From: Paludibacteraceae bacterium
Lineage (GTDB): Bacteria; Bacteroidota; Bacteroidia; Bacteroidales; Paludibacteraceae
Direction of reading: 5' to 3'
DNA length: 50,343 bases
Assembly (NCBI GenBank): GCA_024693065.1
Contig: JAILLP010000015.1
Coordinates: forward strand, 1-50,343
The position numbers and the translations under genes were made by a program. Each line of letters starts with the position of its first letter. The first letter of the stretch is position 1. A model generated the notes under the pieces. The model searched no databases and was not told where the DNA came from. It was given only the letters and a program-made list of their open reading frames with translations. Below are positions 2-15,015 of the stretch, in pieces.

Positions 2-469
2 GACTACGATGGTCGCTTGGCGCTTCTGTCGCACCTCTTCGAATGCGCCTATGCGAGCGAGGAGATGGTGGACGTGGTGGAGCTGGACCGACTCTCCCGC
101 ATCGCCTACTATTTCCGCATCAGGGAGTGGGACTTCCTTTCTCTGAAGTATAGTTTCGAAGCCATGAAACAGCAACGGGGTAGGAGGAACGGCACGGAGA
201 ACGCCCAGCAACGTGAGCGTTACCAATCCGCCTATTCCAACCGTCTGAAGGAGGCCTATAAGATACTGGGATTGAACGAGAAAGCCACGTTGGATGAGGT
301 GAAAACCGCCTACCGCGCGCAGGTGAAGACCTGCCACCCCGACACCCTTCCGCCTACCGCCAAGGATAGCGAGCGGGAGGATGCGTTGATCCGTTTCCGC
401 ACGATTACGGAGGCATACGATTTCCTGTGTGAGGAGTTGGTCGCCGAACCAGTCAGTATGGCGAGATGA
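2..469 (+). CDS. TerB/J-domain protein, array copy 1 (5' end outside window)
   Basis: The reading frame is open from base 2, so the gene starts upstream of the window; the TTG at 17 is internal, because the preceding codons (DYDGR) match the YADRL of the other copies. What remains is the C-terminal half: a TerB-like helical domain (LSHLFECAYASEEMVD) and a J domain with an intact HPD motif (CHPDTLPP). J domains stimulate Hsp70 (DnaK) ATPase; TerB plus J at the C-terminus is the DjlA layout. It ends with EPVSMAR, nearly the same end as copies 3 to 6. This is the first of six consecutive same-strand paralogs. The missing part should hold two membrane helices, as in the complete copies. The client or function is unknown. 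Confidence 0.85.
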   Translation, partial: DYDGRLALLSHLFECAYASEEMVDVVELDRLSRIAYYFRIREWDFLSLKYSFEAMKQQRGRRNGTENAQQRERYQSAYSNRLKEAYKILGLNEKATLDEVKTAYRAQVKTCHPDTLPPTAKDSEREDALIRFRTITEAYDFLCEELVAEPVSMAR

Positions 470-479
470 TGCTCCCTAC

Positions 480-525
480 GGCCTGAAAGGCCACTACATT
501 ATTTAGCCCAGGGCAACGCTTTGGG
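480..525 (+). repeat. two-hairpin REP-like repeat, direct orientation
   Basis: Stem A is GGCCTGAAAGGCC (480-492). A 14-base AT-rich spacer follows, then stem B at 507-525 (CCCAGGGCAACGCTTTGGG, a slightly decayed form of the consensus). The unit begins 11 bases after the stop codon of array copy 1. Confidence 0.75.
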
Positions 526-582
526 GGCAAAACAATATATAATTCAATGCCATGCCCCATCACATTTTCATAAAAAAAGTGC

Positions 583-590
583 TAATTTTG
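583..590 (+). promoter_or_regulatory. -7 box TAATTTTG of array copy 2
   Basis: TAATTTTG fits the Bacteroidota -7 consensus TAnnTTTG. The ATG begins five bases after it, so the transcript should have almost no leader. The TTG -33 element seen at copies 4-6 is replaced by ATCACA here, so this promoter may be weaker. Confidence 0.5.
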
Positions 591-595
591 AAACT

Positions 596-1843
596 ATGGA
601 CAAGAGAAAGATAGATAGTGTGTTCGAGAACTTTAAACGTTGGGGATTGCTGACGAAGGATGGGGCTTTTTACTGTGGGTCCCCTACGCAGTCTTCCTAT
701 TTCGTACTCATTCCCTTTTTTGTCATATTCCTAGGCATTTCCTTTGTTTGGGGATCCTTCCATCCCCCAACAGATGGTTGGTTGGGTTGGAAATTGTTTA
801 GTATAATATTCCCGATTATTGCGGTTCTTGCCTTTTTGGAGTCCCTGCGTGGAATGTGGACGGATCCTTCCCGCCTATATTGGTATAGGGATCGTCTTGT
901 GGGGAAAAACATTTTCAACTGTAATGAGAAAGTGTACATGTACTCCGATATGAAAAGAATCGCAAGGTGCAAAGAATATGATTCGAAGAGAAGGGATTAT
1001 TCTTATGACATAAAAATATTCTTCCGTAATTCGAATGTGAAGCCTATTTCGTTAGTTGATGAGTCCCGTACCCGCCATTTCCTCAGCTCTTGCTTCGGTG
1101 AAATATTTTATGTGAATGAGGAACTTGATATCAGGTTGAGGTTTTTTGCCAAGGTGCTTAAATTGAATGCGCTATCGGGTCGCCCGAGCGAAAAGGAACT
1201 CCAATGTGCGGTGCGTTATTTTACCGGTTTGAGACGTTATGATTGTATGGAATGTGATGCGTCTTATTTCCCCGACAGACTTCTTTCCCTGATGAAGCAG
1301 TATGATTACGATTCGAGGGAGGCGTGTGCGGAGGATTGCCAGAAACAGGGCTTTGAACTCATGATTGGTGACAAAATGACTTACGAGAATCGGTTGGAAT
1401 TGCTTACCAGTCTCTTTGAATACGCCTATGTGGGGGATGGTATGGTGGACGAGGAAGAATTGAAATTCCTCTTCCAACTTGCGTCAACCTTTGGCATCAA
1501 GGATTGGGACTTCCTCTCCCTGAAGCGTCGTTTCGAGGGGGAAAAACAGGCGGAGTCGAAACGGAAGGACTCGGAGAATGCCCAACAAAAGGAACGTTAT
1601 CAGCAGGCCCGCGCTAATTGCGTGCAGGAGGCTTGTTCCCTGTTGAACTTGAGTCCTGGCGCCACTTTTGAGGAGGTGAAGATCGCCTACCGCAAAATGG
1701 TGAAGAGTTGCCACCCGGACACCTTGTCGTCCTCCGCCACGAAGGAGGAACGAGAGGAGGCAGCCATCCGTTTCCGTGCGATCACGGAGGCGTACGATTT
1801 CCTGTGTGCGGAGTTGAAGGAGGAACGTGTTGTGGTATCATAA
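596..1843 (+). CDS. membrane-anchored TerB/J-domain protein, array copy 2 (DjlA-like)
   Basis: The protein has 415 residues if it starts at ATG 596. This start is chosen because MDKRKID aligns with the MDKEKID starts of copies 4 and 5; the in-frame GTG/TTG codons upstream lie in repeat DNA. Order of parts: a short charged N-terminus, two membrane helices (about 36-53 and 67-84), a beta-rich segment that could be a bacterial PH-like domain (about 92-155, inferred), a variable helical stretch, a TerB-like domain (about 263-312) and a J domain with HPD at 373-375. The role is probably a membrane co-chaperone recruiting DnaK. It is the most divergent full copy: it ends RVVVS instead of EPVSVAR, and its -33 region is degraded. 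Copy 3 follows after 28 bases and is probably co-transcribed. Confidence 0.85.
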   Translation: MDKRKIDSVFENFKRWGLLTKDGAFYCGSPTQSSYFVLIPFFVIFLGISFVWGSFHPPTDGWLGWKLFSIIFPIIAVLAFLESLRGMWTDPSRLYWYRDRLVGKNIFNCNEKVYMYSDMKRIARCKEYDSKRRDYSYDIKIFFRNSNVKPISLVDESRTRHFLSSCFGEIFYVNEELDIRLRFFAKVLKLNALSGRPSEKELQCAVRYFTGLRRYDCMECDASYFPDRLLSLMKQYDYDSREACAEDCQKQGFELMIGDKMTYENRLELLTSLFEYAYVGDGMVDEEELKFLFQLASTFGIKDWDFLSLKRRFEGEKQAESKRKDSENAQQKERYQQARANCVQEACSLLNLSPGATFEEVKIAYRKMVKSCHPDTLSSSATKEEREEAAIRFRAITEAYDFLCAELKEERVVVS

Positions 1844-1871
1844 TGGTTTTTAGCGAGTAAATGTGTGGATT

Positions 1872-3038
1872 ATGGACGAAAAGAAGATAGTGAATTTGTT
1901 TAAGAGTTGGGAGGGGAAATCCTTCCTCAACGTGGGTGCGTTGTATGTGAATATGGTCAGCTGGCTGAATCCCCTCCTGTTCTTTGCCATTTTCTTTGTT
2001 TCCATGGTACTCGGTTGGAATCTAGATTTGTACGCTTTCGTCCTTGGTTCATTTCTTATCGCCATATCTCCCCGTGCATTCGTTCCGGAGGTGAGTTTCC
2101 GTACAAAATGCATGGAGTATGGTGATCGGACCTATTATTATGACAAGTTGGAACGGATCGAGTATTCTTATGGCGATGCGAAGAAAAAGAAAGGCAAACA
2201 TATCGTGCTTCATTTTGGCGCTGAGGCCTTTGATATGAAGTTCTCTTATATGACGCAGGCAAAGGCGGACGCTCTACTGCAACTCTTCGGCACTTGCTTT
2301 AAGCCGATCTTTATCAATGAACTATTTTATGAGGATATGATCAGGCTTTTTGCGGATGTGATAGCCTTGAAGAATGACCCCGATTACCAGAATGTGGAGA
2401 TGCAATGCGTTCAGAACTACTTCGGGGAGTCGAAGTACCATGACCGGAATTATAGTCGGGACCTTCGGACTGCGCTCCAAAGTTTCAACAGGTACAAGTC
2501 GATGAAAAGGCTTCCCAAGGGTGAGGGCTATATGAATATTTGTTTGTCCATCATGGGGAACAAGGCGGTGGACTACGCCGAGCGGTTGGATCTCCTGTCA
2601 CATCTCTTCGAATGCATGTATGCGAGTGATGGCATGGTGGACGAAGCGGAGCTGGAACGTCTCTCCCGCATCGCTTTCTACCTGCGCATCAAGGATTGGG
2701 ACTTCCTCTCCCTGAAGTATCGTTTCGAGGCGGAGAAGCAGACGGAGGACCAGCGGAAGGGTGCGGAGAATACCCAGCAGCGTGAGCGTTACCAGTCCGT
2801 TTGTTCCAGCCGTAAGCGTGAGGCGTATAACCTGTTGGGACTGAAGCTTGACGCTACGTTGGAGGAGGTGAAGAGCGCCTACCGCACGCAGGTGAAGACC
2901 TGCCACCCGGATACCTTGCCGCCTACCGCCTCGGATAGAGAAAAGGAGGAGGCCACGATACGTTTCCGCTCCCTTACGGAGGCGTATGATTTTTTGTGTG
3001 CGGAGTTGGCTGCAGAGCCGGTTAGCGTGGCGAAATGA
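1872..3038 (+). CDS. membrane-anchored TerB/J-domain protein, array copy 3 (DjlA-like)
   Basis: The protein has 388 residues from ATG 1872; the GTG at 1863 is less likely because MDEKKIV aligns with the other starts. There are two membrane helices (about 31-49 and 52-68), then a PH-like or otherwise beta-rich segment containing YYYDKLERIEY, and a conserved block FINELFYEDMIRLFADVI. A TerB-like domain (YAERLDLLSHLFE) and a J domain with HPD at 345-347 follow. It ends EPVSVAK. No TAnnTTTG box precedes it and the gap to copy 2 is 28 bases, so it probably shares the transcript of copy 2. The role as a DnaK co-chaperone is inferred from the J domain. Confidence 0.85.
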   Translation: MDEKKIVNLFKSWEGKSFLNVGALYVNMVSWLNPLLFFAIFFVSMVLGWNLDLYAFVLGSFLIAISPRAFVPEVSFRTKCMEYGDRTYYYDKLERIEYSYGDAKKKKGKHIVLHFGAEAFDMKFSYMTQAKADALLQLFGTCFKPIFINELFYEDMIRLFADVIALKNDPDYQNVEMQCVQNYFGESKYHDRNYSRDLRTALQSFNRYKSMKRLPKGEGYMNICLSIMGNKAVDYAERLDLLSHLFECMYASDGMVDEAELERLSRIAFYLRIKDWDFLSLKYRFEAEKQTEDQRKGAENTQQRERYQSVCSSRKREAYNLLGLKLDATLEEVKSAYRTQVKTCHPDTLPPTASDREKEEATIRFRSLTEAYDFLCAELAAEPVSVAK

Positions 3039-3357
3039 CACGGTTCTTTTGCCCCTTCAAGGCGCATGTCCACATGGTCGCGTATGACCCAGGGCGCTGC
3101 CCTGGGCTATGTAAAGGGGAAGCCCTTCAGGCTTTTGGGCGCATGGGGAAGGGTCTCTTTGCAAAGCGAGGAACTGTTTATTATAACGAGGCGATGTTCC
3201 CCTACGGCCTGTAAGGCCACTACATTATCTAGCCCAGGGCAACGCCCTGGGGAATGTGGACATGTGGAGTGTCGGACGCCCCCGGAGGGGGCAAAATAGA
3301 TTTTAATCAATGCCATGCTCCATTGCGTTCCCGTAAAATTGTGCTAATTTTGAAACT
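3039..3357 (+). repeat. composite intergenic block with several hairpins plus promoter of array copy 4
   Basis: Contents in order: an inverted unit with stem B at 3088-3106 (CCCAGGGCGCTGCCCTGGG) and stem A at about 3120-3134; a CTTTGCAAAG palindrome near 3160; a direct unit with GGCCTGTAAGGCC (3206-3218) and CCCAGGGCAACGCCCTGGG (3233-3251); a GC hairpin GCCCCCGGAGGGGGC near 3280; and the promoter of copy 4. The whole block recurs, estimated by eye at about 90% identity, at 6275-6591. Confidence 0.8.
3323..3352 (+). promoter_or_regulatory. promoter of array copy 4, near-leaderless
   Basis: TTG (3323-3325), 19 bases, TAATTTTG (3345-3352), then five bases to ATG 3358. The spacing fits the Bacteroidota consensus TTTG/TAnnTTTG, and the start of transcription should fall at or within a few bases of the ATG. 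The same sequence with one change lies before copies 5 and 6. Confidence 0.65.
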
Positions 3358-4770
3358 ATGGACAAGGAAAAGATAGATAGGATATTCAAGGAGTGGAAGT
3401 ATGAATCGTTGCTGACGGAAGACGGGGCCCTGCCGTCGTCGTCTCCGAATGAACGGTTCTTAGTCGTTCTCGAGAGAATTGGTGCTTATTGTTCCAAATT
3501 TTTCGTTTCCGCGCGGGAAATGCTGCTAGTTATAGTGTTCCCTGCGTTATTTATAGTGCTGCCTTCTCTACTCCCCATTATCTATTTTACTACCCTGGAC
3601 TTAAAATTCTATATTTGGATTATTATCATCATTATATATTTATTTGGCAGTTTCTATTTATTTTCGGATAATAGTATTGTTGGTCGTTTTCTTGATCGTA
3701 TTCTTAATAAGCTTTTCGACTTGACGGAAATCATTGAATCAAAACTTCATTCTTGTCATGAGTCAATCGTTCGTTTCTTTACGGATAGGATGGAAGCCCC
3801 TTGTTTCTATAATGATCGCATGGTGTCATTCCCCTCTCTTCCTATCTATAGAAAATCGTTTTATTATTCTGATTTGAAGGAAGTTGTGTATGGTGGGAGG
3901 GGAAGCAAAAAACCTCGTCTTCGGATTACTTTTAAGGGAAAGAATAAAACGTTTGTCATAAAGGAGGAGCCTGGATTAAGTCGTTTGCTGTATCTGTTTG
4001 GCTCTGCCTTTAAGCCTATCTTTATCAACGAGCCCTTTTATGAGGATATGTTGAGGCTTTTTGCGGATGTGATCACCCTGAGAAGTGACTCCCAGTATCA
4101 GTCTGAGGGATTGCAATGTGCCTTGCGCTATTTCTCCGAATCGAAGTATAGAGACCTTGATTATCAGCGGAAGCTTACCGAACAGGTTGACTCGTTCCGA
4201 CAGTACAGAGAGGGTGGGCGTTCCCCTAACAGAGAACATTTCATCGACAGGTGTATGTCCGAAAAGTGCAAGTCTGTTGTGGATAATGCGGGGGTGGACT
4301 ATGCCGATCGTCTGGATTTGCTGACGCATCTTTTCGAATGTGCCTATGCGAGCGATGGTAAGATGGATGACGAGGAAATCGCGCGTCTTTCTGTCTATGG
4401 GGGATTCCTTTGTGTCGATGATTGGGATGTCATCTCGCTGATGTATGCTTTCGAGGCGGGAACCCATTCTGTGGGTTGGGCGAAAGAAAAGAAGGAGAAT
4501 GAACATCAGCGTCGTAGCCATTACCAAACCACTCGATCTAACCGTATGGAGAAGGCGTATGGTTTATTGCGCTTGCCTTTGGACGCTTCTTTAGAGGAGG
4601 TGAAATCCGCCTACCGTGCGCAGGTGAAGACCTGCCACCCCGACACATTGCCGTCTACCGCCACGGATGGAGAAAGGGCGGCGGCGGCGATCCGTTTTCG
4701 TACCATCACGGAGGCGTACGATTTTTTGTGCGCGGTGCTGAGTGCCGAGCCGGTTAGCGTGACGAAATGA
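3358..4770 (+). CDS. membrane-anchored TerB/J-domain protein, array copy 4 (DjlA-like)
   Basis: The protein has 470 residues. The first 23 residues (MDKEKIDRIFKEWK and on) almost match copy 5. Two long hydrophobic segments follow (about 56-78 and 83-103), then a polar insert of about 50 residues (about 105-160) not seen in the other copies. Next come a beta-rich segment (YYSDLKEVVY), the block FINEPFYEDMLRLFADVI, a TerB-like domain (YADRLDLLTHLFE) and a J domain with HPD at 427-429. It ends EPVSVTK. Its J domain and the end of its TerB domain are close to the other copies, while residues 24-200 are not. It has its own promoter. Membrane co-chaperone function is inferred. Confidence 0.87.
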   Translation: MDKEKIDRIFKEWKYESLLTEDGALPSSSPNERFLVVLERIGAYCSKFFVSAREMLLVIVFPALFIVLPSLLPIIYFTTLDLKFYIWIIIIIIYLFGSFYLFSDNSIVGRFLDRILNKLFDLTEIIESKLHSCHESIVRFFTDRMEAPCFYNDRMVSFPSLPIYRKSFYYSDLKEVVYGGRGSKKPRLRITFKGKNKTFVIKEEPGLSRLLYLFGSAFKPIFINEPFYEDMLRLFADVITLRSDSQYQSEGLQCALRYFSESKYRDLDYQRKLTEQVDSFRQYREGGRSPNREHFIDRCMSEKCKSVVDNAGVDYADRLDLLTHLFECAYASDGKMDDEEIARLSVYGGFLCVDDWDVISLMYAFEAGTHSVGWAKEKKENEHQRRSHYQTTRSNRMEKAYGLLRLPLDASLEEVKSAYRAQVKTCHPDTLPSTATDGERAAAAIRFRTITEAYDFLCAVLSAEPVSVTK

Positions 4771-4802
4771 TACGATTCTTATTTAATCAATGCCATGCTC
4801 CA

Positions 4803-4832
4803 TTGCGTTCCCATAAAATTGTGCTAATTTTG
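4803..4832 (+). promoter_or_regulatory. promoter of array copy 5, near-leaderless
   Basis: TTG (4803-4805), 19 bases, TAATTTTG (4825-4832), five bases, ATG 4838. It is identical in layout to the copy 4 promoter. The hairpin block that precedes this promoter at copies 4 and 6 is absent here; only about 67 bases separate copies 4 and 5. Confidence 0.65.
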
Positions 4833-4837
4833 AAACT

Positions 4838-6274
4838 ATGGACAAGGAAAAGATAGATAGGATATTCAAGGAGTGGAAGGAAAAATCCTTGCTGACGGAA
4901 GACGGGGCGCTGAAGAAACCCATTGAGGATTGTTGGCAGAATAAATTTTTGCCTTTCATTCTCTACTTCGTGTTTTTTGTGGTTTCTATCATATGCTTGA
5001 GTTTGTTTGGGAATATTCGTCCCTCGAGCAAATCGATGTCTGAGTTTTTGGTGCTCCTTATATCCTTTGTTTGGATAGGTCTCTCTTATGTTGTTAAACT
5101 TTTGGGGGAGTATCTAAAAGAACGATTTTCTTCTTCATATTACTATTACAAAGACCGCCTTGAATTGCGTCATTTTCGGGGACTATGGAAGAAGACGTAT
5201 TACTATTGGACTATAAAGCGTATCGTCTGTAGGAACTCGGATTGCACGGTGGAATTTAGAGGTTATAATCAATTGGTGGAGGACCCCGAATTGGCGTATT
5301 TCCCCCGAACCACCTTGGTGGATTTCTTCCGAACGTGTTTCCCCGATCTTTGTTATGTGGACCCGATTTGCTACAAGGAGGAATATGAGGGCGAGATAAG
5401 ACGCTTTGCGAATAGGATATGTTTCAAGACCATGCCGGAGTGCCAGAAGGAGGCCCTCCAGTCCGCACTGACATACTTCTCGAAGTCCAAGTATATCAGC
5501 TATGATTACAAGCGCGACCTATCAAAACGGGTGAGGAAAACCATGTCCATGAAGCAGCGTTATTACACGGATATGATAAGACTCTTCGCGAATATGATAT
5601 GTCTCAGGATGGGTGATTCGTACCAGGATGCGGGTTATCAGTGCCTCATGAAGTACCTCTCCGAGTCGGCTTTCCGCAAGTATGATTATACGCATGATTT
5701 GTCCGAGCAGATTGAGCGCTTTAGGGGCTTGCGGGCGAAGGGGTCCGTCCCGTCGAAGGATAGTTTCGTGAACATTAGTTTGTCCATTGTGGAAAACAAG
5801 GGGTCTGATTACGCCGACCGTCTGGAGCTCCTGTCTCATCTCTTCGAGTGCGCCTATGCGAGCGATGGTCTGGTGGACGAAGAGGAGTTGAACCGCCTCT
5901 CCCGCATCGCATTTTACCTTTGCATAAAAGATTGGGACTTCCTCTCCCTGAGATATCGTTTCGAAACGGAGAAACAATCCAGGGAACGACAGAGTGGCGA
6001 GGAGAACGCCCGACAGCGTGAGCGTTGCCAATTCAGCTATTCCAGCCGTAAGCGGGAGGCCTACAACCTGCTGGGCCTGAAGTTGGATGCCCCGCTGGAG
6101 GAGGTGAAAACCGCCTACCGCACGCAGGTGAAGAGCTGCCACCCCGATACCCTGCCGCCTACCGCCACGATAAAGGAGCGGGAGGATGCCTCACAACGTT
6201 TCCGTACCATCACGGAGGCGTACGATTTTTTGTGTGCGGAACTGGCCGCCGAACCGGTTAGTGTGGCGAGGTGA
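4838..6274 (+). CDS. membrane-anchored TerB/J-domain protein, array copy 5, with internal duplication
   Basis: At 478 residues this is the longest copy. It has two membrane helices (about 37-58 and 68-88), a beta-rich PH-like segment (about 100-145), a TerB-like domain (about 325-378) and a J domain (about 404-470, HPD at 435-437). It carries a module twice: residues about 183-233 (RRFANRICFK, then YFSKSKY and DYKRDLS) and about 243-293 (RLFANMICLR, then YLSESAF and DYTHDLS), offset by 60 residues. The other copies carry this module once. The N-terminal 23 residues match copy 4. The probable role is as a membrane-bound J-protein partner of DnaK; the duplicated module may be a binding surface (inference). 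Confidence 0.87.
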   Translation: MDKEKIDRIFKEWKEKSLLTEDGALKKPIEDCWQNKFLPFILYFVFFVVSIICLSLFGNIRPSSKSMSEFLVLLISFVWIGLSYVVKLLGEYLKERFSSSYYYYKDRLELRHFRGLWKKTYYYWTIKRIVCRNSDCTVEFRGYNQLVEDPELAYFPRTTLVDFFRTCFPDLCYVDPICYKEEYEGEIRRFANRICFKTMPECQKEALQSALTYFSKSKYISYDYKRDLSKRVRKTMSMKQRYYTDMIRLFANMICLRMGDSYQDAGYQCLMKYLSESAFRKYDYTHDLSEQIERFRGLRAKGSVPSKDSFVNISLSIVENKGSDYADRLELLSHLFECAYASDGLVDEEELNRLSRIAFYLCIKDWDFLSLRYRFETEKQSRERQSGEENARQRERCQFSYSSRKREAYNLLGLKLDAPLEEVKTAYRTQVKSCHPDTLPPTATIKEREDASQRFRTITEAYDFLCAELAAEPVSVAR

Positions 6275-6591
6275 TGTGATTCTTTTGCCCCTTCAGGGCG
6301 CATGTCCGCATGGTCGCACTGCCCCAGGGCGCTGCCCTGGGCTATGTAAAGAGAAAGCCCTTCAGGCTTTTGGACGCATGGAGAAGGTCTCTTTGCAAAG
6401 CGAGGAACTGTTCATTATAACGAGACGATGTTCCCCTACGGCCTGAAAGGCCATCACATTATCTAGCCCAGGGTAATACCCTGGGGAATGTAGATGTGCG
6501 GGGTGTGTGACGCCCCCGGAGGGGGCAAAACAAATTTTAATCAATGCCATGCTCCATTGCGTTCCCATAAAATTGTGCTAATTTTGAAACT
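6275..6591 (+). repeat. composite intergenic block with several hairpins plus promoter of array copy 6
   Basis: This is a near copy of 3039-3357. An inverted unit has stem B at 6323-6341. A direct unit has GGCCTGAAAGGCC (6440-6452) and CCCAGGGTAATACCCTGGG (6467-6485); here two stem positions changed together (GC to TA), so pairing is kept. A GC hairpin GCCCCCGGAGGGGGC lies near 6511. The promoter is TTG 6557-6559, 19 bases, TAATTTTG 6579-6586, ATG 6592. Confidence 0.8.
6557..6586 (+). promoter_or_regulatory. promoter of array copy 6, near-leaderless
   Basis: TTG, a 19-base spacer and TAATTTTG, five bases before the ATG. The sequence matches the promoters of copies 4 and 5 almost base for base, so these three copies are probably expressed together. 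Confidence 0.65.
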
Positions 6592-7806
6592 ATGGATACG
6601 AAAAGATTAGATAGTTTATTCGCAAGCTGGAAGAAAAAGAATTTGTTGACGAACGGTGCGTTGGTTATGGGGCGTAGTTGGATCCCTTATGTATTCGGCC
6701 CCCTTGTCGGAGTAGTCTTTTCTGGGTTTGCAATCGCGGTGACCGAATCGATATTCTCCTCCCCCCATTCCCCCATCTCCTTCGCATGTGGAGCGGTTTC
6801 CTTCCTCCTATTTGTCCAAATGTTTCCCGTCAAACATTTTTACAAGGATCGTGTAGAGGTGTTTCGTTTGTGTGGGCTTGTAAAACGTAAGGCTTATTAT
6901 GCGGATTTGAAGAAAATAGTCTATTCTTCTTTTTATGATTTTAAATCGGACTCTTGGAAGACGGCTCTTGTCATTTCGTCCAAAAAGATGCTGTGCCGAG
7001 TGGATCGTGACTTTCTCACTGATACAAAATTCGATTGTTTGTTGCAATTGTTTTCTTGCTACAAACCTTTGTTTGTCAATGAGTTCTATTATAAGCAGAT
7101 GGTAAATCTCTTTGCGTATATGATAACGCTAAAGAGTGATCCTCAATATCAATATGAGGAGACTCAGTTCGCGGTGAGGTATCTCGCGGAGGTGTGTGGA
7201 AATAGTTCTACGGATTATGGGGAAAAACTTGCCTCTGGAATAAAGCTATACAATGCGTATAGGCAGGAGGAAGACAAACTTCCTGCGGAATTGGGGTATG
7301 TCTCTGTATGCCTCGATATTCTGCACAACAAGGGCGTGTGCTATGCGGACCGGTTGGAATTGTTGTCTGCTCTTTTCGAATGTACCTATGCGAGTGACGG
7401 TATGGTGGACGATGTGGAGCTGGACCGCCTCTCCCGCATCGCCTTCTACTTCCGTATCAATGAGTGGGACTTCCTCTCACTGAAGTATCGCTTCGAGACG
7501 GAGAGCCAGAGCAAAAAACAACGGAATGGCAAGGAGAACGCCCAGCAACGTGAGCGTTGCCAATCCGCCTATTCCAACCGCCTGAAGGAGGCTTATAAGA
7601 TATTAGGATTGAACGAGAAAGCCCCGCTGGAGGAGGTGAAAACCGCCTACCGCACGCAGGTGAAAACCTGCCACCCGGATACCCTTCCGCCTGCCGCCAA
7701 GGATAAGGAGAGGGAAGAGGCATCGATACGTTTCCGCACGATCACGGAGGCGTACGATTTTTTATGTGCGGAGTTGGTCGCAGAGCCGGTTAGCGTGGCG
7801 AGATAA
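6592..7806 (+). CDS. membrane-anchored TerB/J-domain protein, array copy 6 (DjlA-like)
   Basis: The protein has 404 residues. The N-terminus MDTKRLDSLFASWK is a variant of the family start. Membrane helices lie at about 31-52 and 60-78. A beta-rich segment (HFYKDRVEVFRL, AYYADLKKIVY) follows, then FVNEFYYKQMVNLFAYMI, a TerB-like domain (YADRLELLSALFE) and a J domain with HPD at 361-363. Its last 130 residues resemble the truncated copy 1 more than its neighbours: both have NRLKEAYKILGLNEKA and LVAEPVS. This suggests gene conversion or duplication across the array. The BspA-like gene follows after 25 bases and may be co-transcribed. Confidence 0.87.
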   Translation: MDTKRLDSLFASWKKKNLLTNGALVMGRSWIPYVFGPLVGVVFSGFAIAVTESIFSSPHSPISFACGAVSFLLFVQMFPVKHFYKDRVEVFRLCGLVKRKAYYADLKKIVYSSFYDFKSDSWKTALVISSKKMLCRVDRDFLTDTKFDCLLQLFSCYKPLFVNEFYYKQMVNLFAYMITLKSDPQYQYEETQFAVRYLAEVCGNSSTDYGEKLASGIKLYNAYRQEEDKLPAELGYVSVCLDILHNKGVCYADRLELLSALFECTYASDGMVDDVELDRLSRIAFYFRINEWDFLSLKYRFETESQSKKQRNGKENAQQRERCQSAYSNRLKEAYKILGLNEKAPLEEVKTAYRTQVKTCHPDTLPPAAKDKEREEASIRFRTITEAYDFLCAELVAEPVSVAR

Positions 7807-7831: not shown

Positions 7832-9865
7832 ATGAGACGTTACTTTTTTTTACTCCTCCTTTTCTTTCTCCTTGCCTCGGTGGGCAGGGCGGCGGACCCT
7901 CTTCGTCTTACGGCCGTGGAGGATGGGGTGATGGTCTCTGTAGCGTCGTATGCGGGCAATCATCCTTCACTGGAGTATTCCCGTGACGAGGGCGCTTCGT
8001 GGTCTCCGTTGCGCTTCCACCCGAGTGAGGATGGGGACACCGTGAACACCATGTCGGAACTGATCGAACTGCAGCATGCGGGCGAAACGGTCTGCTTCAG
8101 GGGAGACAATCCGAACGGACTCTCCGGTTCTTCCTCGACGAATGATATGGGGTTCTATAGTACCCGTTATACCGCTTTCGTGATCGAGGGTGCGGTCTAT
8201 GCGGATGGCGACGTGATGAGTCTGCTGTATGGGGACGCTTCGCATGCGGAGATTCCTTCCGAATATTGTTTCTACCGCCTGTTCGAGAATTGTGAAGGCT
8301 TGCGCCGTGCGCCACGTTTGCCCGCCACGACGTTGACCAAGGGATGCTATTCCCGCATGTTCATTGGCTGCAAGGGGTTGAAAGAAGCCCCCGAATTGCC
8401 TGCCCTGCGCTTGGCTAACGGTTGCTATGCGTATATGTTCGAGAATTGTGAGGGCTTGCGCCGTGCGCCCCGCTTACCGGCCACCGAACTAGGTGTGGGT
8501 TGTTACATGTGTATGTTCTCTGGTTGCAAGAGCTTGCGATGTGCGCCACAATTGCCGGCGGAGAGGATGGCGGACAATTGCTATGACAGGATGTTTATGC
8601 TTTGCTCGTCCCTGAGGAAAGCGCCTGCTCTTTCCTCTCGCTCTTTGGCACCTTATTGCTATGCGAATATGTTCTGCGAATGTTCTCTCCTGAAGCGTGC
8701 GCCTGCATTGCCTGCCGTTTCCTTGGAGGAGGGTTGTTATTATTCCATGTTCGAGATGTGTGGAAGCTTGCGGAAGGCTCCTTCCTTGTCTTCTGTCCGT
8801 TTGGCGAATGCCTGCTATGTGAGTATGTTTGGCGGATGTGTGCGCCTGAAACGTGCGCCTGCATTGCCTGCCGACACATTGGCGGAGCGTTGCTATGTTG
8901 AGATGTTCTCGGGCACGGGGTTGGCCGAGGCGCCTGAACTTCCTGCTAAGGCATTGGCGGATCACTGCTACGAGAAGATGTTCTCTAAGTCTTCGCTGAA
9001 GAAGGCACCGAAATTACCCGCCTTGCGCCTGACGGAAGATTGTTATGCCTCCATGTTTGAGAGGTGTAGCTCCCTGAAATGTGCCCCTGCGTTGCCCGCT
9101 CGTCGCTTGGCGAAAGGGTGTTACCGACAGATGTTCGCGGGATGTGGGTTGGATAGCCTGCCTGCATTGCCTGCCGACACATTGGCGGAGGATTGTTACC
9201 AATATATGTTTTGGAGGTGCGGCTCGATAAGGCGGGGCGTTCCTCTGCCCGCATTGAACTTGGCTCCAGGATGTTACTTGTATATGTTCTCCGAATGTCC
9301 GAATTTGGCGGAGGCTCCGGCCTTGCCTGCCACTGTGCTGCGGGATCGATGCTATCAGGGCATGTTCGACGGATGTGGGGCGTTGCGCCGTGCACCGTCA
9401 TTGCCTACGACGGAGTTGGCGGATGGATGTTATAGTAGTCTGTTCAGAGGCTGTGTTTCGCTGACGGAGGCTCCTGCTCTTCCAGCCAAGGTTTTAAGTC
9501 CTTATTGCTATGCGAATATGTTCGATGGGTGTGTGCGTCTTTCCGTTGCGCCTTCGCTTCCCGCCGAAGGAATGAAGAGGGGTTGCTATTTGGGTATGTT
9601 TGCGGGGTGTGCCGCATTGGAGCGGGCGCCTGAGTTGCCAGCCGTCTCCTTGGCGGAGGATTGTTACAAGGGAATGTTTCGTGGTTGTACCGGTCTGAAG
9701 TACCTGAAGGTTCATTTCAACAGTTGGTTGGACTCCACCTTTTCTGTCGCCACGAGCGGTTGGTTGGATGGTGTGGGGGAGGAGGGTACCTTCGTCTGCC
9801 CTGAGGTGCTCCCGGTTGATGACGGGACGAGTGGGGTGCCGGAGGGATGGAGAATTAAGAATTAA
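7832..9865 (+). CDS. secreted BspA-like repeat protein with 18 Cys-Tyr repeats
   Basis: The protein has 677 residues. The start at ATG 7832 gives a clean signal peptide (RRYFFLLLLFFLLASVGRAA); in-frame codons upstream overlap the J-protein gene. An N-terminal beta-rich domain (about 22-150) precedes 18 repeats of 25-26 residues with pattern CYxxMF-x-GC-x-L-x-AP-x-LPA-x-x-LA. A C-terminal cap follows (TFVCPEVLPVDDG, then GVPEGW). This is the Cys-rich variant of the BspA-type leucine-rich repeat, usual in gut Bacteroidales surface proteins that bind host or bacterial partners; the ligand here is unknown. The final residues RIKN and the stop are encoded by an AATTAAG repeat array, so the original end was probably replaced. 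It has no lipobox. Confidence 0.85.
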   Translation: MRRYFFLLLLFFLLASVGRAADPLRLTAVEDGVMVSVASYAGNHPSLEYSRDEGASWSPLRFHPSEDGDTVNTMSELIELQHAGETVCFRGDNPNGLSGSSSTNDMGFYSTRYTAFVIEGAVYADGDVMSLLYGDASHAEIPSEYCFYRLFENCEGLRRAPRLPATTLTKGCYSRMFIGCKGLKEAPELPALRLANGCYAYMFENCEGLRRAPRLPATELGVGCYMCMFSGCKSLRCAPQLPAERMADNCYDRMFMLCSSLRKAPALSSRSLAPYCYANMFCECSLLKRAPALPAVSLEEGCYYSMFEMCGSLRKAPSLSSVRLANACYVSMFGGCVRLKRAPALPADTLAERCYVEMFSGTGLAEAPELPAKALADHCYEKMFSKSSLKKAPKLPALRLTEDCYASMFERCSSLKCAPALPARRLAKGCYRQMFAGCGLDSLPALPADTLAEDCYQYMFWRCGSIRRGVPLPALNLAPGCYLYMFSECPNLAEAPALPATVLRDRCYQGMFDGCGALRRAPSLPTTELADGCYSSLFRGCVSLTEAPALPAKVLSPYCYANMFDGCVRLSVAPSLPAEGMKRGCYLGMFAGCAALERAPELPAVSLAEDCYKGMFRGCTGLKYLKVHFNSWLDSTFSVATSGWLDGVGEEGTFVCPEVLPVDDGTSGVPEGWRIKN

Positions 9866-10099: not shown

Positions 10100-10255
10100 C
10101 ATTCCCTTGCATGATGCGCATAACTGAGCCCTGAAAGGGCGAAACATTATTTAGCCCAGGGCATCGCCCTGGGGAATTATGGATGCCCGTCCGGTTCATT
10201 GCCAGCCCTGAAAGGGCGAAACATATATAGCAAGGGCAACGCCCTAGGGAATTAT
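10100..10255 (+). repeat. two direct two-hairpin REP-like units
   Basis: Unit 1: GCCCTGAAAGGGC (10128-10140), spacer GAAACATTATTTAG, CCCAGGGCATCGCCCTGGG (10155-10173). Unit 2: GCCCTGAAAGGGC (10205-10217), spacer GAAACATATATAG, then a shorter stem B ending in CGCCCTAGGG. Together with the composite element this fills the 450 bases between the BspA-like gene and tpiA; I see no gene here. Confidence 0.8.
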
Positions 10256-10317: not shown

Positions 10318-11073
10318 TCAGAATGCGTTGATGATGCCGCAGAAATCCTCAACCTTCAAAGAAGCGCCACCGATCAAACCACCGTCGATGTCTGGCTTAG
10401 CGAACAACTCAGGAGCGTTGGAAGCCTTGCAAGAACCACCGTAAAGGATAGAAGTGTTCTCAGCAACTTCCTTGCCATATTTGTCAGCTACGCAAGAACG
10501 GATGTATGCGTGGATCTCCTCAGCTTGGTCAGCCGTAGCGGTCTTGCCAGTTCCGATCGCCCAGATTGGCTCGTAAGCGATGGTGATCTTAGCGAAGTCC
10601 TCAGCGGACAAGTTGAATACTGAACCCTCCAACTCAGCCTTAACGACTGCGTTCTGCTTGTTAGCCTCACGCTCTGCCAAGCTCTCGCCGATGCAGAAGA
10701 TAACCTTCAAACCGTTCTTCAAGGCCAAGAGAACTTTCTCCTTCAAGATCTCTGGAGTCTCGTGGTAGTACTCACGACGCTCAGAGTGGCCCAAGATAAC
10801 GTACTCCGCACCTGTTGATTTAACCATAGCGGCGGAAACCTCGCCAGTGAATGCGCCAGACTCTTTGTCTGCACAGTTCTCAGCGGAAACTGCGATCACC
10901 TTAGTGTCGATGGCTGCTGCCACGCTTGCCAAGTGGATGAATGGAGTGCCGATGATGACATCGCAATTCAGTTTCTTACCCTTCAAAGCGGCGTCCAAGC
11001 CCTTTGCCAACTCAAGACCCTCTTGGAGTGTCTTGTTCATTTTCCAGTTTCCTGCAACGATATTCTTTCTCAT
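10318..11073 (-). CDS. tpiA: triosephosphate isomerase
   Basis: The protein has 251 residues, the normal length. It interconverts dihydroxyacetone phosphate and glyceraldehyde 3-phosphate in glycolysis, in the cytoplasm, as a dimer. Catalytic residues are visible: Asn9 and Lys11 (GNWKMN), His96 (LGHSERR) and Glu168 in [13 protein letters not shown], where the mobile loop follows; the phosphate-binding GG lies near the C-terminus ([10 protein letters not shown]). It is the last gene of a minus-strand run DUF1599 - DoxX - tpiA, with gaps of 30 and 34 bases, and ends at a strong terminator. The start is ATG 11073. Confidence 0.98.
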
Positions 11074-14604: not shown

Positions 14605-15015
14605 TGCCGTATTTGGTTATTTACGATTTAACTATTTACGATTTGCGGGTTCATTAATTCCCAGGGCGATGCCCTGGGCTAAATATGTTATGCCCTTTCA
14701 GGGCTGAGGTGTGCGCATCGTGTAAATCCCGCTCCTTAATTCTTAATTCTTAATTCAAAATTCATAATTCCCTAGGGTGTTGCCTTGGGCTATATGTGTT
14801 ATGCCCTTTCAGGGCTGAGGTGTGCGCATCGTGTAAATCCCGCTCCTTAATTCTTAATTCTTAATTCAAAATTCATAATTCCCTAGGGTGTTGCCCTGGG
14901 CTATATGTGTTATGCCCTTTCAGGGCGGATAACGAATAGTATAGCTCTCATTCTTAACTACTTACGTCAACAAGCAACAGACAAATTCTTAATTCTTAAT
15001 TCTTAACTCTTAATT
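14605..15015 (-). repeat. 111-bp tandem repeat of REP-like units with TTAATTC arrays
   Basis: Three two-hairpin units lie at a regular spacing of 111 bases: the motif after stem A starts at 14701, 14812 and 14923. Each unit is GCCCTGAAAGGGC, ATAACACATATAG and CCCAGGGCAACACCCTAGGG read on the minus strand, separated by AATTAAG heptamers and GGAGCGGGATTTACACGATG. The array begins right after the stop of the regulator gene. A short AT-rich repeat (ATTTACGATTTAACTATTTA) lies near 14618-14640. No gene is seen in this 434-base gap. Confidence 0.85.

Follow-up and report, generated by a model that had tools for sequence, protein, structure and literature searches.

DjlA is one of six J-domain proteins listed for E. 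coli in PMC8215388. It is described as having a single membrane helix in PMC11709261, which also reports that this helix and the J domain are both essential for Rcs induction and that DnaK is needed too. DjlA combines a membrane anchor, a TerB-like domain and a C-terminal J domain with an HPD motif, and all three recur in the proteins of the tandem array described here; DnaK is the likely partner of both. To our knowledge, DjlA has no PH-like domain. The array proteins differ from DjlA in that two helices and a PH-like domain, rather than a single N-terminal helix, precede TerB in the modelled copy, and in that they are encoded by 7–11 tandem copies with different fronts. Their predicted front resembles bacterial PH-domain membrane proteins (bPH), where two membrane helices are likewise followed by a PH-like sheet. 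Unlike bPH proteins, however, the array proteins have this front joined to TerB and J, and at E 0.1 no array member has a Pfam match to a bPH family (two match PH_NDK7_N weakly). The component domains are known already; what is unusual is one full-length Hsp70 alongside about 20 J-domain genes, many of which sit in arrays with differing membrane fronts. A literature search restricted to open-licence papers found no paper on tandem TerB-J arrays.

Results

The window, i.e. the whole stretch of DNA analysed, comprises 50,343 nt of contig JAILLP010000015.1 (assembly GCA_024693065.1, Paludibacteraceae bacterium) and begins at a contig end. The array and its surroundings contain the following features:

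2..469, plus strand: 3' part of an array gene, covering the end of TerB and the J domain (PF00226 E 4.8e-13); contig C21:1-987 (minus strand) carries the front
583..590, plus strand: promoter-like TAnnTTTG box, separated from the start codon by 5 bases (from sequence, as are the three further boxes)
596..1843, plus strand: array gene of 415 aa with front type T8, a type whose hairpin omega is about 3
1872..3038, plus strand: array gene of 388 aa with front type T12; its start lacks an adjacent TAnnTTTG box
3039..3357, no strand: 319-base spacer with palindromic repeats (from sequence)
3345..3352, plus strand: promoter-like TAnnTTTG box, again 5 bases from the start codon
3358..4770, plus strand: array gene, front type T26, 470 aa; T26 occurs only in this genome among the seven
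4825..4832, plus strand: promoter-like TAnnTTTG box, again 5 bases from the start codon
4838..6274, plus strand: array gene, front type T3, 478 aa; the added length includes a duplicated middle segment
6275..6591, no strand: 317-base spacer with palindromic repeats (from sequence)
6579..6586, plus strand: promoter-like TAnnTTTG box, again 5 bases from the start codon
6592..7806, plus strand: array gene of 404 aa with front type T5, used for the model (AlphaFold pLDDT 88, pTM 0.82)
7832..9865, plus strand: repeat protein with CYxxMF units, probably secreted, directly after the array in all seven genomes

The six same-strand tandem genes reported by an earlier sequence-only reading were thus recovered as ORFs (complete ones 388–478 aa; the starts of two were reset to the conserved ATG), but gene 1 is truncated where the contig ends. 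The ends of this contig and of contig C21 share an exact 64-base overlap, so that gene 1 is split over two contigs. Because its front and two further array copies lie on C21, the array of this genome has eight genes. In the T3 gene, front-profile positions from 155 onward matched twice; for most of 3451–4650 in the T26 gene, DNA matches to the other six genomes are short and partial at best.

The array occupies one chromosomal locus in seven genomes of the genus; its flanks are conserved, its contents differ. Copy number (7–11 genes per genome) and the set of 26 front types vary between species, as a proposed comparison across genomes was meant to reveal. The relatives are mostly rumen Paludibacteraceae. 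All 60 copies examined are complete ORFs; the contig-end fragments C21_987, C30_2, G009_C124_1 and G005_C52_58406 were left out of this set. A TAnnTTTG box, predicted to be promoter-like, was found at most 25 bases from the start in 44 of the 60 copies, where gene G005_C20_47825 (T14) was mistakenly scored with an upstream start, which lowered its front identity and counted it as having no box. The repeat protein after the array, which we take to be BspA-like, had no Pfam family at E 0.01, and the flanks that were read yielded no recognisable defence gene.

DnaJ (PF00226) matched all six ORFs of the window and TerB five, two of them above the curated cut-off; in most window copies the TerB score straddles this cut-off closely. 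Across the array members, Pfam searches at E 0.1 placed PF00226 in 62/62 and TerB in 57/62, and the HPD motif was invariant in 62/62 aligned rows. Only DnaJ and TerB recur among the Pfam matches of the 62 members, with no zinc-finger or DnaJ C-terminal family, which together with the HPD-bearing J domain fits class C of the J-domain proteins. In the AlphaFold model of the T5 copy, two membrane-type helices come first, followed by a beta-rich part, the helices of a TerB-like domain and the J domain:

6682..6819, plus strand: membrane hairpin formed by helices 31-54 and 60-76, from the model; the most variable region by identity bins and dN/dS
6829..7056, plus strand: PH-like domain (strands 80-138, helix 144-155), from models and weak Foldseek PH/PTB matches
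7081..7491, plus strand: TerB-like helical domain, from the model and PF05099 (182-296, E 1.9e-4, under the curated cut-off in this copy)
7579..7782, plus strand: J domain with HPD (H361, P362, D363), PF00226 E 3.7e-12

As in DjlA, TerB stands between membrane anchor and J domain. The order of parts proposed from the sequence was therefore seen in the model of one copy, with J matches in all; its TerB part was matched in five of the six ORFs. Several top Foldseek matches of the modelled copy were PH/PTB folds, and neither the PDB nor the viral library gave a fold match at E 0.001 or better. We read the front as containing a predicted PH-like domain.

Identity is uneven along the copies. Among the seven complete copies of this genome, mean pairwise identity was 13–31% in the seven 20-residue bins over residues 21–160, versus 42–81% in the eight bins over residues 241–400. 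This bears out the observation that membrane and middle parts differ. The last 150 or so residues, however, are not nearly identical as had been stated: mean identity of the C-terminal part was 0.652 within genomes versus 0.665 between genomes. Front types are shared patchily between species, and the nearest other genome changes gene by gene along the window. Near-identical fronts occur across species for T4 (G000/G001) and T7 (G005/G010), where a DoxX-type gene diverges by 16% and 12%, respectively, but the isomerase neighbour by only 1% and 3%. Given the latter values, the patchiness may reflect old orthology and loss instead of exchange. One-to-one orthologues, a fixed copy number and purifying selection had been named as findings that would speak against a variable adaptor set; we found patchy cross-species orthologues and a low dN/dS of TerB-J (0.1–0.3), but a varying number of copies.

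Similarity of the 3' ends had been attributed to gene conversion. The nearest neighbour was a gene of the same front type for TerB in 46/49, for the linker in 45/49 and for the first part of J in 36/49 genes. TerB, linker and first part of J thus mostly track the front type, and gene conversion across the whole C-terminal 150 residues was rejected. Homogenisation was detected in one stretch only, where genes were closest to a same-genome paralogue more often than with shuffled labels:

7672..7803, plus strand: last 44 codons, where homogenisation within genomes is detectable; spacers on C21 and in relatives contain orphan copies of this stretch

One of these orphan tail remnants is fused to a gene start. 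T4 fronts differ in 1–2 of 690 bases between three species, but the last 44 codons in 18–24 of 132 (14–18%; Fisher P of 2.6e-13 or less). Since the fronts are near-identical and these ends have diverged, the 3' ends recombine.

dN/dS was 0.5–3 for the membrane hairpins and 0.1–0.3 for TerB-J, which is under strong purifying selection. Pairs with dS outside 0.1–1.5 were dropped (58/75 hairpin pairs used); a further hairpin comparison dropped pairs below 70% front identity and kept 42. On a likelihood grid with three kappa values, hairpin omega was significantly above 1, uncorrected, in two of eight types (T2, 2.0, 2dlnL 6.9; T8, 3.0, 2dlnL 8.1), about 1 in two and 0.5–0.7 in two; T7 reached a 2dlnL of 6.8 with kappa free versus 3.5 on the grid. 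G010_C57_47158 was left out of T1 in this grid, and same-genome pairs were left out of the control comparison. Controls outside the array gave 0.56 and 0.15 for single-copy relatives, 0.22–0.70 for membrane parts of other arrays and 0.07–0.16 for the multi-pass DoxX-type protein. As relatives outside the array are also raised (0.56; 0.22–0.70), relaxed constraint explains part of the raised hairpin omega. A frameshift was rejected as the source of high values by reading nucleotide alignments of two of the highest pairs (T2, T8). Membrane location alone could be rejected only in part, as the controls span 0.07–0.70.

The genome encodes 19 J-domain genes over the cut-off and one full-length Hsp70. 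J-domain matches number 1–8 in each of 246 other sampled Bacteroidales genomes and 3–27 within the genus; about 20 J-domain genes per full-length Hsp70 is far outside the usual range of those 246 genomes. A suggested search of other Bacteroidales genomes did find several tandem arrays repeating the layout within the family: membrane J-domain genes at the suf locus of G000, G003 and G010, and at G007:C43 and C49, G126:C9 and G020:C25. Like the array studied here, they are tandem, with a variable front and a more constant J end, but their fronts are unrelated, their J domains belong to other lineages, and in the two arrays of other genera the J ends are only 0.49–0.64 identical. No TerB match was found in three scanned G007 array proteins, and tail homogenisation in the suf arrays was not significant (8.3/20 versus 6.5 shuffled). 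Wide spread of the front across the order was rejected, as front profile A2 matched 3/295 genomes, this one among them and the other two weakly. Phages, plasmids and viral contigs contained no full-length relative, and a phage or plasmid origin was rejected; partial relatives were two phage records (J domain only), one plasmid record (DjlA-like, a third of the query) and one J-only locus in viral contigs.

Discussion

We consider it somewhat probable that the array is a diversified, recombining tandem set of DjlA-like membrane-anchored co-chaperones directing one DnaK. Very different membrane-embedded fronts sit on a related chaperone-recruiting tail, and DnaK may therefore be directed to many membrane partners. 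Each copy would recruit the one DnaK through the constant end, and hairpin and PH-like front would select a membrane protein, a lipid site or a damaged partner for it; the set would let a single DnaK serve many such partners. The fronts may accordingly be client- or partner-specific adaptors, as the earlier sequence-only reading proposed. Species could gain, lose and trade fronts by homologous recombination, aided by the shared 3' end, the common sequence before many start codons and the conserved flanks.

Possible, but less likely, is that DjlA-like co-chaperones simply multiplied in this lineage by ordinary birth and death and share overlapping general roles. Fronts would then drift, since nearly any hydrophobic sequence can serve as a membrane anchor, whereas the need of every copy to fit the same DnaK would keep the tails similar. 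Hairpin dN/dS near or below 1 in several types, the raised membrane parts of one single-copy relative and of other arrays, and the gain and loss shown by spacer remnants agree with such an expansion. It does not sit well with the omega of 2–3 in T2 and T8, the low values of the other single-copy relative and the DoxX-type protein, the existence of several arrays with the same layout, or the T4 and T7 fronts that are near-identical in species with diverged DoxX-type genes, although the isomerase differs little there. Under a conflict-driven scheme, which we hold to be quite unlikely, fronts would bind changing foreign or neighbour membrane proteins (phage, toxin, bacteriocin) and the constant end would call DnaK to disarm them. 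Hairpin diversification in some types and the patchy, exchanged repertoires would fit. So would a small 2-TM protein that the front weakly resembles and that itself matches bPH_7 weakly; it is encoded in a different genome of the order, right behind an ORF that we take to be RHS-like by motif. But the front's match to it is weak (24 bits; hhalign probability 80), the RHS-looking ORF has no Pfam family, and the sole other weak front match lies in the membrane part of what is presumably a diadenylate cyclase. PADLOC gave no consistent match either (three families, each in 1/62 members, best E 0.003), and the flanks read held no recognised defence gene. Finally, a variable part joined to a constant part that recombines is reminiscent of a silent-cassette store for antigenic variation, with a single expressed copy and the rest serving as donors. 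This is highly improbable: the 60 copies are complete ORFs, 44 with a promoter-like box, no distinct expression site was seen, and the J end is presumably cytosolic rather than surface-exposed.

The co-chaperone set directing one DnaK could extend to an inner-membrane recognition repertoire: each species would have a different set of hairpin/PH receptors that evolve under diversifying selection and pass between species through recombination, all wired to a shared DnaK effector. We regard this extension as rather doubtful; if true, it would be a chaperone-based counterpart of immune repertoires that pair variable receptors with constant signalling. With some 26 fronts on back ends of one kind, the arrays of the genus amount to a natural library that separates targeting from DnaK activation and makes testable a long-standing question, the role of TerB and the membrane parts in DjlA-like proteins. 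If the fronts recognise foreign or changing partners, they would constitute an Hsp70-based recognition repertoire in bacteria.

Results

The window starts at base 1 of contig C30 of a 3.48 Mb genome in 37 contigs. Its positions 2–7806 are occupied by six ORFs, all on one strand, as the sequence-only reading had described. However, the first of these is the 3' part of a gene whose front sits at one end of contig C21; that end and the start of C30 share an exact 64-base overlap. Since two further complete copies are located on C21, the array comprises eight genes, seven of them complete within a contig.

Variable fronts on a shared end were confirmed. Among the seven complete copies, mean pairwise identity was 0.13–0.31 in the seven 20-residue bins of residues 21–160 and 0.42–0.81 in the eight such bins of residues 241–400. 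In contrast, near-identity of the last ~150 residues did not hold: identity of the C part averaged 0.652 within and 0.665 between genomes. The copies are therefore clearly related at the C end, yet not nearly identical.

In Pfam searches, DnaJ (PF00226) matched all six window ORFs and TerB five of them, two above the curated cut-off. We then aligned 60 complete array proteins and two relatives from genome G011. DnaJ was detected in 62/62 and TerB in 57/62 (E 0.1), and the HPD motif was found without exception. For the copy at 6592–7806 (+ strand), AlphaFold (pLDDT 88, pTM 0.82) predicted the following parts:

Start of protein: short N-terminal helix
Residues 31–54 and 60–76: two membrane-type helices (the hairpin)
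Residues 80–155: beta sheet and closing helix
Residues 164–300: TerB-like helices
After the TerB-like helices: J domain

A separate model of the front gave the same fold. Several PH/PTB folds were among the top Foldseek matches in the PDB, but none reached E 0.001, and 'PH-like' is therefore a fold reading rather than a family assignment. The J end is presumed to face the cytosol.

Genome-wide, we found 19 J-domain matches above the Pfam cut-off and one full-length Hsp70 (a second PF00012 match is partial, in a 341-residue frame). In 246 other genomes of the order, a sample with only three others of the window's family, the J-domain number was 1–8; within the genus it was 3–27, and many relatives also occur in some other genera of the family. 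The array is real and its copy number lies well outside the usual range.

Sixteen genomes of the genus were searched and seven contained the array. Six named relatives are MAGs labelled Paludibacteraceae (5) or Bacteroidales (1), and four of these labels mention a ruminant stomach.

Array genes per genome
Window's genome: 8
G001: 7
G003: 8
G005: 9 complete and one cut, over two contigs
G006: 9, two of them inside an inverted segment
G009: 9 complete and one cut
G010: 11

The array occupies one chromosomal locus in these genomes: all seven have a CYxxMF-repeat gene directly after it, the opposite flank holds a Sel1-repeat gene in 6/6 genomes whose contig covers that side, and triosephosphate isomerase comes next in 5/5 whose contig extends to it. 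In five sister genomes (G002, G004, G007, G011, G015), the isomerase is instead followed by a 221–223-residue gene with the motif FVI(I/V)VAGGKGLRMGG and a 702–703-residue gene; the array was not found in the stretch read. G007 carries an isolated relic tail at another place, and G011 two full-length, distant relatives (32% and 27% identity) on separate contigs.

The isomerase protein (window 10318–11073) is ~100% identical in 11 of the 16 genomes, although DNA differences reach 16% between the genomes compared and neighbouring genes are much less conserved, a sign of extreme purifying selection. In G006 (contig C18; locus L066, 3547–11075), a segment holding a GH16 gene, the Sel1-repeat gene and two genes of the array runs in the opposite orientation to that seen elsewhere, and one of its ends falls inside the array; inversion and assembly error are both possible.

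Single linkage sorted the fronts into 26 types when the cut-off was 60% identity and into 14 when it was 50%, with only one same-genome pair reaching 0.60. Copy number and content differ between genomes (7–11 genes per array), each having its own set of fronts. Along the window, the best-matching genome switches from one gene to the next. It is G009 for most of 450–3000; most of 3450–4650 has none; at 4800–6000 G005 and G009 (partly G001) match best, and at 6600–7500 G003 and G010. The CYxxMF-repeat gene (7832–9865) also appears mosaic, 8701–9450 being nearest to G001/G009 and 9601–9850 to G003/G010.

The proposed gene conversion at the 3' end was analysed by a region-wise nearest-sequence test on the DNA of 60 genes. 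The nearest sequence lay in the same genome for 0/60 N parts, 4.0/60 TerB regions, 4.3/60 linkers and 3.9/60 first parts of J, versus 18.5/60 for the last 44 codons (7.9 ± 3.2 after shuffling; 2/500 shuffles reached 18.5, which is a guide and no probability, since shuffles ignore relatedness). Thus, homogenisation within genomes shows up in the last 44 codons, but not in TerB, linker or the first part of J. The share of nearest sequences with the same front type drops towards the 3' end (N part 49/49, TerB 46, linker 45, first part of J 36, last 44 codons 25).

Type T4 fronts from three species differ at 1–2 of 690 bases, but their last 44 codons at 18–24 of 132 (Fisher P of 2.6e-13 or less, taking sites as independent). 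Among pairs whose fronts are at least 0.96 identical in DNA, 12 of 13 showed such a tail excess (P of 0.0016 or less), the T10 pair being the sole exception. Between the window's genome and G001, T4 fronts differ by 0.3%, the DoxX-type gene by 16% and the isomerase gene by 1.2%; for T7 in G005 and G010 the values are 0.1%, 12% and 3.2%. Exchange between species is the simplest reading of these near-identical fronts. Spacers of all seven genomes together contain 11 orphan tail copies, one fused to a gene start, which look like deletion footprints. Tail matches away from gene ends numbered 14; of the three others, one is the relic of G007, one lies where a contig ends and one belongs to a gene already counted.

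Window spacers also harbour a GC-rich palindrome, CCCAGGGC..GCCCTGGG:

3088–3107
3232–3251
6323–6342
10154–10173
14659–14678

Ten of its 13 exact places genome-wide are within or adjoin tandem-array loci, namely the TerB-J arrays of C21, C23 and C30 and a series of mutually similar genes for secreted proteins (C16, 172–200 kb). The palindrome could be a REP-like element or a marker of loci that recombine.

The layout recurs at the suf locus, with four genes in the window's genome, seven in G003 and nine in G010 (identity 0.14–0.19 in the first 120 residues, 0.80–0.84 in the J end). Tail homogenisation was not significant in these suf arrays (8.3/20 versus 6.5 shuffled). G007 has arrays of five (0.22 and 0.83) and three genes (0.52 and 0.87), and arrays in two other genera gave 0.16–0.17 and 0.49–0.64. 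Loci L025, L072, L073, L083, L080, L078 and L079, from the window's genus and two further genera of its family, hold separate tandem arrays of membrane J-domain genes; their fronts vary, their J ends are more constant, and most of those scanned have TerB.

Among same-type genes, median Nei-Gojobori dN/dS was 0.86 for the hairpin (exceeding 1 in 26 of the 58 usable pairs), 0.32 for the PH-like part, 0.12 for TerB and 0.18 for J. After realignment within types, 42 pooled, non-independent pairs gave 0.90 for the hairpin, 0.29 for the PH-like part and 0.17 for the C part. Codon likelihoods were computed over a grid for the eight types with at least three members.

Hairpin omega by front type
T2: 2.0 (2dlnL 6.9)
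T8: 3.0 (2dlnL 8.1)
T7: 3.0 (2dlnL 3.5)
T4: 1.5 (2dlnL 2.0)
T1 and T3: 1.0 each
T5: 0.7
T6: 0.5 (2dlnL 3.4)

Hairpin omega was significantly above 1 in two of eight types (uncorrected); PH-like omega was 1.5 in T7 and 0.2–0.7 in the other seven types, and TerB-J omega 0.1–0.3 in all eight. Control membrane parts gave 0.07–0.16 (DoxX-type protein), 0.15 and 0.56 (single-copy TerB-J relatives), 0.22–0.63 (suf-locus arrays) and 0.70 (a small tandem TerB-J group). Loose constraint on membrane parts is therefore common in the family, with the array at the upper end, and only some types are likely to be under diversifying selection.

A TAnnTTTG box, which is the -7 consensus of Bacteroides (PMC7366714), lies at most 25 bases from the start of 44/60 array genes versus 2/30 other window genes, and ends 4–5 bases ahead of the start codon in 42. 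The boxes of the window are:

583–590, +
3345–3352, +
4825–4832, +
6579–6586, +

Only 19 have a TTG 17–21 bases further up. If the box is the promoter, its position suggests transcripts starting at or next to the ATG, that is, leaderless mRNAs; in B. thetaiotaomicron, the same paper puts 5' UTRs below 10 bases at only ~3.7%.

Discussion

The array most likely combines a constant TerB-J recruiter with a copy-specific front that chooses location. The strongly constrained TerB-J part would present the J domain to DnaK, and the place of DnaK action would be set by the membrane hairpin together with the PH-like part, of which each copy has its own version. Architecture, repertoire differences, recombination and selection pattern are established steps of this scheme. 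DnaK binding, front-specific partners and a benefit are steps that we infer.

The selection on the hairpin and the exchanged repertoire would also suit an immune-like role, and the fronts weakly resemble a protein of G151, another genome of the order. This small protein (L126, 645–1950) has two TM segments and matches bPH_7 weakly, and it is its membrane-to-PH part that weakly matches array fronts. Its gene directly follows an ORF that looks RHS-like by motif; Pfam found no family in that ORF. By its placement, the small protein might be an immunity gene. These three hints are all that point to an immune-like role of the array, which we regard as unlikely.

For the recruiter with a location-choosing front, the nearest precedent is DjlA of E. 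coli, a design that the array multiplies. Membrane helix and J domain of DjlA are both reported to be essential for Rcs induction, which depends on DnaK as well as GrpE, whereas what TerB does is not clearly defined (PMC11709261). The array is informative but assembled from known parts, and we regard it as a novel form of DjlA-like membrane co-chaperones.
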